Shown piece by piece: positions 39,001 to 45,346 of a stretch of DNA of 64,000 bases. The DNA comes from Candidatus Metalachnospira gallinarum (lineage in GTDB: Bacteria; Bacillota; Clostridia; Lachnospirales; Anaerotignaceae), in the NCBI GenBank assembly GCA_904378045.1, contig CAJFHC010000003.1, positions 1-64,000 on the forward strand. The letters run 5' to 3'. Under the pieces are notes generated by a model, which had not been told where the DNA came from, searched no databases, and saw only the letters and a program-made list of their open reading frames with translations. Position 1 is the stretch's first letter, and each line of letters begins with the position of its first letter. A program made the translations under genes and the position numbers.

Positions 39001-40239
39001 TTATTTTAAAGAATGGATAAACAGTCCGCTTCTCAGCTTAGGCTCGAACCAAGTCGATTTCGGAGGCATGATCTTATTCTCGTCAGCGATTTTCATAAGC
39101 TGCTCTATCGACGTCGGATACATGGCGAAGGCCAGCTTCATTTCTCCACTGTCGACCCTCTTCTCCAGTTCTCCAAGTCCTCTTATGCCGCCGACAAAAT
39201 CTATCCTTTTGTCAGTTCTTATATCGCCTATGCCAAGTATCGGTATAAGAACATTGTCCTGAAGGATGGAAACGTCAAGTCCTCTAACGGCGTCATCGGA
39301 GCGTATCTCGTCCTTCGCCGTAAGCATATACCATTTTCCGTCCATATACATTCCAAAGTCGCATGCTTTTTCAGGCTTAGCCCTGCCCTCTGTCTCTCTG
39401 ACGGTGAATTTTTCGGAGAGCTTATTTAAAAGCTCGTCGCCGCTCATTCCGTTGAGATCCCTTACAACTCTGTTGTAGTCAAGTATTTTAAGCTCGTCGG
39501 AGGGGAATATGACCGAGAGATAGTAGTTGAATTCCTCTTCGCCGGTATATCCCGGATTTTCAGCCCTGCGCTTAAGGCCGACCTTAGCCGCGGAAGCGTT
39601 TCTGTGGTGGCCGTCGGCTATATAAAGGGCGGGAACATTCTTAAAAAGCTCCACAAGCCTGTTTATCATATTCTCATCGTCAATGACCCATGCCCTGTGG
39701 CCTATGCCGTCGTCGGCCGTAAAATCATAGACGGGCGTTTTTTCCTTAACGCTTTCAACCGCCGATGATATTTCATCCACGGTTCTGTAAGCGAGGAATA
39801 TGGGGCCGGTGTTGGCGTCGCATATATCGACGTGACGGATCCTGTCCTGTTCCTTATCCTCACGGGTGAGCTCGTGCTTTTTGATTGTTCCGTTCAGATA
39901 TTCGTCAATGGATGCACAGGCCACAAGTCCGGTCTGGCTCCTGCCGTCCATGGTAAGCTCATAGACATAAAGCAGAGGGCTTTCGTCCTGTATGAACACT
40001 CCGGTATCTATCATTTTATAAAGGTTTTCCTTCGCCTTAGCGTATACCTCCGGGGAATATATATCCGTTCCATCGGGCAGGTCGATTTCCGCCTTATCCA
40101 CATGGAGGAAGGAATAGGGGTTGTCTTTGGCGATCTCGGCGGCTTCCCTGCTGTTTACTACGTCGTACGGCAGGGCAGCGACCTTCTCCGCCTTGTCCGG
40201 AGTCGGCCTGATGGCCCTGAAAGGTCTAATTACAGCCAT
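39001..40239 (-). CDS. DUF1015 family protein in the serine operon
   Basis: A 412-aa protein of DUF1015. The typical start is VIRPFRAIRPTPDKAEKVAALPYDVVNSREA, followed by later YIADGHHRNASA (histidine pair), which resembles a catalytic or metal site, and a C-terminal KSTWFEPKLRSGLFIHSL. No function is established. In many Clostridia it is encoded directly after serC and serA, as here (15-base gap to serA), so a role in serine or 3-phosphohydroxypyruvate metabolism is likely. The operon has no recognisable phosphoserine phosphatase (SerB), so DUF1015 could supply or replace a step; this is inference only. Confidence 0.9.
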   Translation of the reverse strand: MAVIRPFRAIRPTPDKAEKVAALPYDVVNSREAAEIAKDNPYSFLHVDKAEIDLPDGTDIYSPEVYAKAKENLYKMIDTGVFIQDESPLLYVYELTMDGRSQTGLVACASIDEYLNGTIKKHELTREDKEQDRIRHVDICDANTGPIFLAYRTVDEISSAVESVKEKTPVYDFTADDGIGHRAWVIDDENMINRLVELFKNVPALYIADGHHRNASAAKVGLKRRAENPGYTGEEEFNYYLSVIFPSDELKILDYNRVVRDLNGMSGDELLNKLSEKFTVRETEGRAKPEKACDFGMYMDGKWYMLTAKDEIRSDDAVRGLDVSILQDNVLIPILGIGDIRTDKRIDFVGGIRGLGELEKRVDSGEMKLAFAMYPTSIEQLMKIADENKIMPPKSTWFEPKLRSGLFIHSLK

Positions 40240-40254
40240 ATACTCAGCCCCCTC

Positions 40255-41430
40255 TCAGGCTTCCTTGACGATCCTTACCTTAACGATACCGTCTACTTTG
40301 GAAAGTCTGTCGGCGATCTCCTGACCCTTGCCGTTGAATGTATCAACGTCAATGAGTGTATATGCGTATTCGCCCTTATTGTTGTTTACCATGTTGTCGA
40401 TATTGAGTCCCTCGTCGGAAATCGCGTTGGCAACGGCGCCGACCATACCTTTGACATTTCTGTGAAGAATGGCGAGTCTTGCCTTTCCTGTGTAGGGGAT
40501 GCTGCAGCTGGGGAAGTTAACGGAATTTTTGATATTTCCGTACTCAAGATACTGTTTGAGCTCCATAGCCGCCATTTCCGCGCAGTTTTCCTCGCTCTCG
40601 GGTGTTGAGGCTCCAAGATGGGGGATGCAGATAACGTGGTCAAGATTGATGACCTCTGCGTCGGGGAAGTCTGTAATGTACTCCGTGATAGTTCCCTTTT
40701 CAAGCGCTTCTTTAAGAGCCGCTGTGTCAACAAGTCCGCCTCTGGCGAAGTTGAGAAGTCTTGCGCCGGGCTTTGTGATGTCAAAAAGATCCTTGTTATA
40801 CATTCCTCTTGTGCTGTCGTTGAGGGGAACATGGATCGTTATGTAATCGCAGGCTGCAACAAGTTCTTCCCTTGTTCCCGCTCTTTTTACCTTGCTTGAA
40901 AGGCTCCATGCGGAGTCAACCGAAAGGAAAGGATCATATCCGTAAACTTCCATTCCGAGGCTTATAGCCGCGTTGGCAACAAGCACTCCGATAGCTCCAA
41001 GACCGATAACACCGAGCTTTTTGCCCATAATTTCGGGGCCTGTGAACTGTCCCTTGCCTTTTTCAACGAGCTTATCCACGTTGTCCTTGCCTTTGAGCTC
41101 CTTTGCCCATTCGATACCTTCCACGATCTTTCTTGAAGAAAGGAAAATACCTGTAAGAACAAGCTCTTTAACGGCGTTGGCGTTCGCTCCGGGAGTATTG
41201 AATACAACGATTCCCTTTTCAGAGCATTTGTCGATGGGGATGTTGTTTGTTCCTGCTCCGGCTCTCGCAACGGCGGCAAGGCTGTCAGGAAGCTCCATTT
41301 CATGCATGTCGTAGCTTCTTAAGATTATTCCTTCGGGATCTTTAATATCGTCTCCGATAATATATTTTTTAGGATTGAGCTTGCTTAAGCCAACCTCTGA
41401 GATCGAATTGAGTGTCAATACGTTATACAT
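40255..41430 (-). CDS. serA: D-3-phosphoglycerate dehydrogenase
   Basis: A 391-aa NAD-dependent 2-hydroxyacid dehydrogenase. It has the substrate-binding RAGAGTNNIPID, the Rossmann motif LGVIGLGAIGVLVANAA, catalytic arginine in LLNFARGGLVD, glutamate in the DFPDAE region and histidine in VICIPHLGASTPE. A C-terminal ACT domain (about 318-391) probably senses serine. It oxidises 3-phosphoglycerate in the first step of serine synthesis. The ATG at 41430 follows GGAGG by nine bases. It lies 17 bases after serC. Confidence 0.96.
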   Translation of the reverse strand: MYNVLTLNSISEVGLSKLNPKKYIIGDDIKDPEGIILRSYDMHEMELPDSLAAVARAGAGTNNIPIDKCSEKGIVVFNTPGANANAVKELVLTGIFLSSRKIVEGIEWAKELKGKDNVDKLVEKGKGQFTGPEIMGKKLGVIGLGAIGVLVANAAISLGMEVYGYDPFLSVDSAWSLSSKVKRAGTREELVAACDYITIHVPLNDSTRGMYNKDLFDITKPGARLLNFARGGLVDTAALKEALEKGTITEYITDFPDAEVINLDHVICIPHLGASTPESEENCAEMAAMELKQYLEYGNIKNSVNFPSCSIPYTGKARLAILHRNVKGMVGAVANAISDEGLNIDNMVNNNKGEYAYTLIDVDTFNGKGQEIADRLSKVDGIVKVRIVKEA

Positions 41431-41447
41431 TGTGTTTTTCCTCCGAA

Positions 41448-42530
41448 TCATTTATTTTCAACTTCAAATTTCTTCATAAAGTCAACGAGCTTCTGCACGC
41501 CCTCAACAGGCATAGCGTTGTACATACTTGCTCTCATACCGCCTACTGTTCTGTGGCCCTTGAGGTTTACGAAACCTGCCGCCGTAGCCTCCTTGATGAA
41601 CTTGGCGTTGAGCTCCTCCGTAGGAAGGATGAAAGGCGCGTTCATAAGCGAACGGTCCTTGGGTACGACTGTTCCTTTGAAGAAGTCGCTCTCGTCAAGG
41701 AAGTTGTAAAGGATAGACGCTTTCTTTTCGTTTATTTCCTGCATAGCCTTTACGCCGCCTCTTTCTTTGACCCACTCGAACACAAGTCCTGCCACATAGA
41801 TGGAGAACGTGGGAGGCGTGTTGTAGAGGGAATCATTGTCGGCATGGGTCTTGTAGTCAAGCATTGTGGGAGTGATGTCCATAGCGTTTCCAATGAGGTC
41901 GTCACGGACGATTACGACCGTAACGCCGGCGGGTCCCACGTTTTTCTGAGCTCCTGCAAAAAGAAGACCAAACTTGCTTACATCGATGTCCTCTGAAAGA
42001 ATGATCGAGGAAATATCCGTTACAAGAGGTACGTTTCCCGTTTCAGGGAGTTTTGTATATCTTGTTCCGTAAATAGTGTTGTTGTATGTAATATAGAAAT
42101 AATCCGCTTCGGGATCGAATTTGCTCTTGTCAAGCTCGGGGATATAGCTGAAAGTCTTATCCTCCGATGAAGCTACCACGTTTACCTTTCCGTAGCGCTG
42201 AGCCTCTGATTTTGCTTTCTTTGCCCACTGTCCCGTTATAACGATATCGCATTTGTTGTTCTTGTTCATAAGGTTGAGGGGTATCATCGCGAACTGTGTG
42301 GAGCCGCCGCCCTGTAAGAAAAGCACCTTATAGTTGTCGGGAATGTTCATAAGCTCACGGAGAGTAGCCTCTGCGCCCTGGATTATTTTCTCGAAAGGCT
42401 TAGATCGATGGCTCATCTCCATTACCGACATGCCTGAATCGCCGTAACAGACAAGATCCCTCTGTACTTTCTCAAGCACTTCAAGCGGTAACATCGACGG
42501 TCCTGCAGAAAAATTATAAACTCTTTCCAT
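41448..42530 (-). CDS. serC: Phosphoserine aminotransferase
   Basis: A 360-aa class V aminotransferase. VYNFSAGPSMLPLEVLE at the N-terminus and LFLQGGGSTQFAMIP (cofactor phosphate region) are typical, and the PLP lysine is in FAGAQKNVGPAGV. It turns 3-phosphohydroxypyruvate into phosphoserine. It is the first gene of serC-serA-DUF1015. Transcription must pass a predicted intrinsic terminator at 42603-42635 to reach it, so the operon is likely controlled by attenuation. AAGGAGG precedes the ATG. Confidence 0.97.
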   Translation of the reverse strand: MERVYNFSAGPSMLPLEVLEKVQRDLVCYGDSGMSVMEMSHRSKPFEKIIQGAEATLRELMNIPDNYKVLFLQGGGSTQFAMIPLNLMNKNNKCDIVITGQWAKKAKSEAQRYGKVNVVASSEDKTFSYIPELDKSKFDPEADYFYITYNNTIYGTRYTKLPETGNVPLVTDISSIILSEDIDVSKFGLLFAGAQKNVGPAGVTVVIVRDDLIGNAMDITPTMLDYKTHADNDSLYNTPPTFSIYVAGLVFEWVKERGGVKAMQEINEKKASILYNFLDESDFFKGTVVPKDRSLMNAPFILPTEELNAKFIKEATAAGFVNLKGHRTVGGMRASMYNAMPVEGVQKLVDFMKKFEVENK

Positions 42531-42728
42531 TGAAAAAAGCCTCCTTAAAAATATAATAGTAATAATGGTTTTCCGGCGTCATAAAGAAAAGTTTTAAAAA
42601 TCTAAAGAAAAAACATGGCCTGCTCAAAGCCATGTAAAAAATATATTAAAACATCTTCCCTTATATTCGCCGTTCAAAGTCCGAGGCTTAAATTTCGGGC
42701 TCTGAACGCCGTTTATAATTTCAGCTTG
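42531..42728 (-). promoter_or_regulatory. Attenuator-type leader of the serC operon with mutually exclusive hairpins
   Basis: On the minus strand the leader has three linked elements. (1) A 5' hairpin forms by CGTTCAGAG pairing with CTTTGAACG (9 pairs), with an inner CCGA/TCGG stem. (2) An intrinsic terminator is at 42613-42635. (3) GTTCAGAGCC (plus coordinates 42698-42707), part of the 5' arm, can instead pair over ten bases with GGCTTTGAGC (42622-42631), which contains the 5' side and loop of the terminator. Forming that pair would break the terminator. No T-box, known riboswitch or Ser-rich leader peptide is visible. Confidence 0.7.
42603..42635 (-). terminator. Intrinsic terminator inside the serC leader
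   Basis: ACATGGC pairs with GCCATGT (42629-42635 with 42613-42619) on the minus strand, followed by TTTTTCTTT, about 80 bases before the serC ATG. Confidence 0.88.
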
Positions 42729-42734
42729 TTTATG

Positions 42735-42764
42735 ATTATAGCAACGGCCGGTTCGTTTCGTCAA
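42735..42764 (-). promoter_or_regulatory. Promoter of the serC operon
   Basis: TTGACG (42759-42764), an 18-base spacer and TATAAT (42735-42740) on the minus strand. The 220 bases further upstream (42765-42982) are AT-rich without a gene. Confidence 0.75.
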
Positions 42765-43051: not shown

Positions 43052-43969
43052 TTATATATTTAGCGGGCTCGTCTCCGTGCTGAAATATTCCGCCCTTGAT
43101 ATTCCGGAGGACATTCCTTCTATTTCCGTGACTACGGAATAGACATATTTGCCGTTCCTGTACTTACGGTTTACCCTTTGTCCCGTTATTATCTCGTTTT
43201 CGCCGATGGTAATATTTTCAGCCGCCATCGCCAAAAGTTCCCCATCGGTATACGATTTTTCCGGAGGCGCGATATTTTCGAGTTCTCCGCAGTCTCCCCT
43301 TGCCTCTATCCTTTTCGCGAGGCCGTTGAGCACAAAAAAATCATATCCGCAGTCGGATTCAAAGCCGTTTATCATATAATTCAGCGAAACAACTCCTACG
43401 ACCGTATGTCTGTCCATCTCGGTCAGTGAGTTTACGGACACTTTAAAACGATCAGGGTCATGATCAGTGTTTCTTCGTATAAATTCCAGTATATATTTCG
43501 GATCACCCTCGTCAAAGGAGTAAAACACAGGATATTTAAGTTCTCCGCCGGATGCTTTCTCATAAGGGAAAATGTCCACGGCCTGACCGTCCCATTCCAC
43601 ATCACAGCCGGATATTTCGGCCGCGGCCCTTACCGGCACATAGGCTCTGTCGTCTATTATTTTCACGGCAGCGCCGCAGTCCACGGAAATATCTTCGGCT
43701 CCATCGTACACAAGCGCGATGTCGCTGCCGACGTTCAGCTCGATCATTCTTTCCCCGTCAGAAGCGGATATTTTTCCGTTATCCCATTCCACATCATAAC
43801 CAAGGCTTTCAAACACGGCTCTGAAAGGCGCCAGAGCCCGCTCCTCCTTTATGACCGCATAGGATACCTCCCTGCCGTTTATCCTGACTGGTATGCCGTT
43901 TCCATAGGCAGTCTGTAAAAACGCCGCCGCGGCGGCCGCGAATAAAACCATCTTTGCTCCTATCTTCAA
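43052..43969 (-). CDS. Secreted copper amine oxidase-like N-terminal (stalk) domain protein
   Basis: A 305-aa exported protein. It has an N-terminal signal peptide (about residues 1-23, hydrophobic MVLFAAAAAAFLQTAYG). Next come two copies of the stalk-domain motif: IPVRINGREVSYAVIKEERALAPFRAVFESLGYDVEWD and AAVKIIDDRAYVPVRAAAEISGCDVEWD. The C-terminal 170 residues form a beta-rich domain I do not recognise. Stalk domains act as wall-associated modules in Clostridia, and no oxidase active site is present. It lies alone between the ribosomal operon and the ser operon. Confidence 0.88.
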   Translation of the reverse strand: MKIGAKMVLFAAAAAAFLQTAYGNGIPVRINGREVSYAVIKEERALAPFRAVFESLGYDVEWDNGKISASDGERMIELNVGSDIALVYDGAEDISVDCGAAVKIIDDRAYVPVRAAAEISGCDVEWDGQAVDIFPYEKASGGELKYPVFYSFDEGDPKYILEFIRRNTDHDPDRFKVSVNSLTEMDRHTVVGVVSLNYMINGFESDCGYDFFVLNGLAKRIEARGDCGELENIAPPEKSYTDGELLAMAAENITIGENEIITGQRVNRKYRNGKYVYSVVTEIEGMSSGISRAEYFSTETSPLNI

Positions 43970-45120: not shown

Positions 45121-45310
45121 TTTAACACCTCCTTAATAGCAAAATTATTTTATTGCCATTTTCCGTTGCTGTTAGCAACGGCGGGTCTCATATAAGAAAA
45201 GCCCCTGTGTCGCGCAGACAAGGGGCTAAAATTCTCCTGATACAAGTCTCCTCGGCGGGCAGGACAAAGTCCTTTACGCTTTCGCGCCTGCTGTCTGCGG
45301 CAATATTCAA
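45121..45310 (-). ncRNA. Ribosomal protein L10 leader with attenuator
   Basis: On the minus strand the leader has the L10 leader core: CGCAGACAGCAGGCGCGAAA near the start, then CCTGCCCGCCGAGGAG. An intrinsic terminator follows (AGCCCCTTGT...ACACAGGGGCT, 45200-45227, then TTTTCTT), ahead of rplJ. In Firmicutes such leaders bind the L10(L12)4 complex and adjust rplJL transcription to free protein. A short inverted repeat CCGTTGCTGTTAGCAACGG lies between the terminator and the SD. Confidence 0.88.
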
Positions 45311-45317
45311 CTGTTTG

Positions 45318-45346
45318 ATTATAAATCAAATCTTATCCTTTGTCAA
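45318..45346 (-). promoter_or_regulatory. Consensus promoter of rplJL
   Basis: TTGACA (45341-45346), a 17-base spacer and TATAAT (45318-45323) on the minus strand, starting four bases after the rplA stop codon. A perfect consensus. Confidence 0.9.

Follow-up and report, generated by a model that had tools for sequence, protein, structure and literature searches.

A candidate lineage-specific transcription attenuator in the serC leader of Candidatus Metalachnospira gallinarum

The described systems that most resemble the leader reported here are the T-box leader (RF00230), the serC motif (RF00517) and the pyr leaders that work with PyrR. The pyr leaders are attenuators in which a 5' anti-antiterminator hairpin is combined with an intrinsic terminator, and the serC motif is an alphaproteobacterial element. 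The ligand of the serC motif is listed as unknown (PMC3766115). A serine T-box on serA has been shown by experiment (PMC8002221), and the same work also cites two further species in which a serine T-box is predicted ahead of serC. Below we describe a serC leader from the family Anaerotignaceae and set it beside these systems, beside its relatives and beside the explanations that might be given for it.

The serC leader and the described leader classes

The leader precedes the serC-serA-DUF1015 operon on the minus strand of a stretch of 64,000 nucleotides from Candidatus Metalachnospira gallinarum (contig CAJFHC010000003.1, positions 1 to 64,000), which we call the window. The first gene, serC (41448..42530, with its ATG at 42530), encodes a phosphoserine aminotransferase of 360 amino acids (Pfam Aminotran_5, 165.7 bits) and overlaps by 4 bases serA (40255..41451), which encodes a 3-phosphoglycerate dehydrogenase (Pfam 2-Hacid_dh_C and 2-Hacid_dh). 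The third gene (39001..40239) encodes a DUF1015 protein (Pfam PF06245, 413 bits). These matches agree with the operon named in a preliminary description, which was made from the sequence alone, and the parts that it had placed before serC, a promoter, a 5' hairpin and an intrinsic terminator, were all found by computation on the minus strand in that order. The promoter is of the sigma-70 type, TTGACG-18-TATAAT (42735..42764), and agrees with the consensus at 11 of 12 positions; its -35 hexamer TTGACG lies at 42764-42759 and its -10 hexamer TATAAT at 42740-42735, with a spacer of 18. Transcription would start at about 42728, and the 5' stem-loop, P1 (42668..42711), begins about 17 nt past this inferred start. 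The terminator hairpin (42613..42635; 9 pairs, a loop of 5, -10.8 kcal/mol) is followed by the T tract TTTTTT (42607..42612) and, nearer to the gene, by the serC Shine-Dalgarno sequence AAGGAGG (42540..42546).

Two side observations belong to the same stretch. Between P1 and the terminator, a 2-codon open reading frame, ATG TTT TAA, is found at 42654 on the minus strand after AAGGGAAG; its translation is hypothetical. The window also holds a ribosomal protein L10 leader at 45186-45318 on the minus strand (Rfam RF00557, 53.8 bits).

The serC leader is neither a T-box nor a serC motif, and it has no match in Rfam. A search of the leader at the gathering score and at an E-value of 10 returned noise only, with no family matched; RF00230 gave no match in the leader and RF00517 gave none in the window, at either threshold. 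The T-box core, sought as the pattern TGGNA(A/C)C, is absent from the region upstream of serC in the window and present in the T-box relatives, and the open reading frames of the leader hold at most one serine. In these respects the preliminary description, which had put forward a candidate element outside the known classes with no T-box core and no serine-rich leader peptide, is borne out. Like a T-box leader, the leader in the window carries before serC an intrinsic terminator able to cut transcription, but it is without T-box sequence and has about half the length. Its likeness to the serC motif is the place before serC for which that motif is named. The pyr leaders resemble it in having a promoter, a 5' hairpin and a terminator in that order, and in a possible competing helix; here, though, that helix is disfavoured by 10.6 kcal/mol, and a known protein site was not recognised.

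Folding of the leader RNA

The region that holds the hairpin and the terminator is clearly beyond chance: positions 42600-42728 fold better than shuffled sequences (z -4.3), and none of the 200 shuffles was as good. P1 alone amounts to -20.3 kcal/mol and keeps a pairing probability of at least 0.95 at all transcript lengths tested (six lengths, three temperatures), while the completed terminator has a pairing probability of about 0.95 in the predicted ensemble.

A switch between two mutually exclusive folds, one terminated and one open, had been proposed in the preliminary description, and the pairing from which that proposal started is present. The sequence GTTCAGAGCC (42707-42698), which belongs to the left strand of P1, is complementary without interruption over ten pairs, including two G-U, to GGCTTTGAGC (42631-42622), which comprises the left arm and loop of the terminator. 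Dinucleotide shuffles of the upstream stretch reach this length in about 4-5% of cases and this duplex energy in 0.2-0.4%, so that we regard the ten-pair complement as unusual but not decisive. It also follows in part from the resemblance between the right arm of P1, GGACTTTGAAC, and the left arm of the terminator. The P1 hairpin and the terminator do not exclude each other and can form together. The fold that contains both has a predicted energy of -38.6 kcal/mol, against -28.0 kcal/mol for the fold with the ten-pair helix, and is thus better by 10.6 kcal/mol; over the same six transcript lengths and three temperatures, the predicted occupancy of the alternative helix is at most 0.0002. Because the joint fold is favoured, the alternative has almost no occupancy and P1 is made before its competitor, termination would be the default state, and the alternative would need an outside factor.

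The leader among relatives in the genus and the family

Within the genus, three other species were available for comparison (G001, G002 and G003). The promoter of G003 is nearly unchanged relative to the window while the leader diverges, and both structural elements of the leader are nevertheless kept there: a helix stands at the place of P1 with arms that have changed yet still pair, and the 9-pair terminator stem is retained with two changes that preserve pairing, from A-U to G-U and from G-C to G-U. For P1 we relied on a global alignment together with folds, because the MAFFT alignments A2 and A3 misplace the G003 P1 and pair counts made on them would mislead. The alternative helix is reduced in G003 to AGAGC:GCTTT, or 5 of the 10 pairs, with a predicted occupancy below 1e-6, and in this species the best complement of the terminator arm does not exceed chance (shuffles, p 0.36). 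In G002 a single short hairpin stands ahead of serC, and a T-tailed terminator is absent; the terminator is therefore not essential to the operon in the window's genus. In other words, of the stems whose conservation bears on the proposed switch, the 5' hairpin and the terminator are kept in one sister species and the alternative antiterminator is not. The leader of G001 was unusable, as the contig ends 244 bases before serC, inside a repeat. The sequence before serC in that species (L004, 2581-2824) is a modular repeat; 65 matches to it lie in G001 and none in the other three genomes of the genus.

A covariance model, R1, was built on two leaders, that of the window (G000) and that of G003; because the alignments misplace the G003 P1, it describes the P1 of the window only. 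Run over 58 Anaerotignaceae genomes, R1 recovered the element only before serC in these two species. Those of the next matches (24-38 bits) that were inspected either overlapped coding open reading frames or were terminators following rplL or a pheT-like gene. Recurrence would be expected of the ligand-sensing element that the preliminary description had suggested, yet the matches are the serC leaders of two species of one genus, and that suggestion is not upheld. A conserved aptamer spanning many species or genes was not found with this two-sequence model in the 58 genomes, and the leader as a new riboswitch class is not supported.

A search of the leader's own genome found it in a single copy; it is therefore not a dispersed repeat. 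Of the promoter-like matches elsewhere in the genus, those inspected lay in coding sequence, so that the promoter search yielded no co-regulated gene, and no instance of the promoter pattern was found in viral contigs. A simple scan covering 80 serC loci of other genomes picked up a promoter with a terminator after it only in G003 and in one T-box locus.

Orthologues of serC occur in 55 of the 58 Anaerotignaceae genomes. Rfam T-boxes lie directly before the gene in genera g3, g4, g5, g9, g12, g13 and g15, and the T-box relatives score 79-100 bits to RF00230; many of the T-box loci (L012, L014, L016, L018, L021, L023, L024, L025, L028, L029 and L033) fall just under the Rfam gathering score. 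Nearly all of the non-T-box serC genes of the family are preceded by a TTGAC-TATAAT promoter in the equivalent position, and from the recurrence of this promoter type it follows that the serC transcript most likely includes the terminator of the window. Three genomes of genus g11 (G026, G034 and G077) show a promoter, a T-tailed terminator and serC, without a T-box. Their leader terminators have no sequence similarity to that of the window, and in g11 complementarity to the terminator arm does not exceed chance; leader termination at the serC operon therefore seems to have more than one origin. Two loci of genus g10 (L009 and L136, in G025 and G069) seem to carry a short open reading frame, equipped with a ribosome-binding site of its own, in the interval from the serC promoter to the gene.

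A palindrome, RGACAWWTGTCY, precedes serC with at most two mismatches in 39 of 54 family loci (examples are L006, L017, L022 and L003), where 8.6 would be expected from shuffles, and we consider it the probable operator of a protein regulator. In genera g6, g10 and g11 its position is fixed, about 133 bases ahead of the point where the -10 hexamer ends. A second copy lies 13-28 bases past the -10 in g6, g10, g17 and several T-box genera, and in some genera the paired copies are about 146-162 bases apart. A search of the 420 bases that precede serC in the window gave no copy of the palindrome. In G003 it occurs as an exact copy further upstream, at -368 from the serC start codon, and in G002 as a near copy, also further upstream. 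Exact copies elsewhere precede genes resembling those for serine dehydratase, glutamine synthetase, threonine synthase and citrate synthase, as judged by eye from their translations. Across whole genomes, exact copies are no commoner than those of a reversed control, and the evidence for the operator is therefore its positional conservation at serC only.

A proposed default terminator and its alternatives

The leader has the arrangement of an attenuator, that is, a promoter and then a T-tailed hairpin inside the leader, and as the two-state switch finds no support in relatives, we see in it a probable local attenuator rather than a new class of riboswitch. We hypothesize, with somewhat more confidence than doubt, that it is a young, lineage-specific, promoter-proximal transcription attenuator in which termination is the default and serC is expressed by read-through. 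RNA polymerase would start near 42728 and make the stable 5' stem-loop P1, after which most transcripts would be expected to stop at the intrinsic terminator, which ends about 115-120 nt downstream of the start. The serC-serA-DUF1015 genes would then be made from the fraction that reads through. Because P1 and the terminator form independently of each other, the leader would be off by default, and if it is regulated, an outside factor would act on the terminator or on the 5' hairpin, the ten-pair helix being predicted to make no switch by itself. That the terminator works in the cell we infer, and the same applies to the read-through fraction and to any factor that might change it. Of the “undescribed attenuator or riboswitch” of the preliminary description, what stands is a non-T-box leader outside Rfam with a convincing terminator, kept with its pairing in the same position in a sister species; the specific switch is not supported.

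That switch would operate if a small molecule or a protein freed the left strand of P1, allowing the ten-base pairing with the terminator arm and hence antitermination. Ten uninterrupted pairs are available, and their energy is rare enough among shuffles to leave room for a switch; the left arm of the terminator resembles the right arm of P1, as in known attenuators, and the operon is classically subject to feedback control. Against this, the joint fold of P1 and terminator is much the better one and leaves the alternative almost unoccupied, a P1 that had already formed would need to be broken, half of the pairs are gone in G003, and there is no further occurrence in the 58 family genomes. We consider such a switch unlikely: on the folding models it would be possible only with an outside factor, relatives give it no support, and as a specific proposal it is not supported. 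Regulation through another geometry seems to us rather unlikely; here the competitor of the terminator would be an RNA-binding protein or the very 5' end of the transcript (AAGCU). Both terminator-bearing species share AAGCU close to the start and UGGCUU in the terminator, AAGCU is changed in G002, which is without the terminator, and in G003 AAAGCUA can pair with UGGCUUU, with a predicted probability of 0.91 just before the right arm of the terminator is made. However, this pairing drops to 0.03-0.05 once the terminator is complete, the G003 complementarity is, as given above, no better than that of shuffles (p 0.36), the window offers just six weak pairs, and the three sequences compared are too few.

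The terminator might end transcription arriving from upstream, with the serC promoter lying between the terminator and the start codon and the leader promoter being a chance match. A weak promoter-like site (42582-42553, 9 of 12 consensus positions) is indeed present between the terminator and serC, and the gene upstream at 43052-43969 runs in the same direction as serC; but a TTGAC-TATAAT promoter before serC is kept through the family, and that of G003 is nearly unchanged next to a diverged leader, which makes this arrangement very unlikely. The T-boxes directly before serC in the other genera named above would fit a leader that is the worn remnant of a serine T-box. We find this hardly credible, given that the leader has no T-box core and no T-box match even at an E-value of 10, that its promoter type differs, and that its terminator sequence is unlike T-box terminators. 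It is quite unlikely, too, that the leader is a genus-restricted attenuator sensing serine or one-carbon compounds, with the 5' stem-loop as the sensor, that replaced the T-box and the protein operator of the sister genera.

What the preferred reading of a local attenuator would mean depends on whether the attenuator responds to anything. If it is fixed, the leader would be an ordinary one, and a ten-pair complement in one genome would be weak evidence for a switch. If it is regulated, one operon within one family would have come under three solutions of control, a T-box, a probable DNA-binding protein and a local attenuator, and this, if true, would make the turnover of control elements testable.
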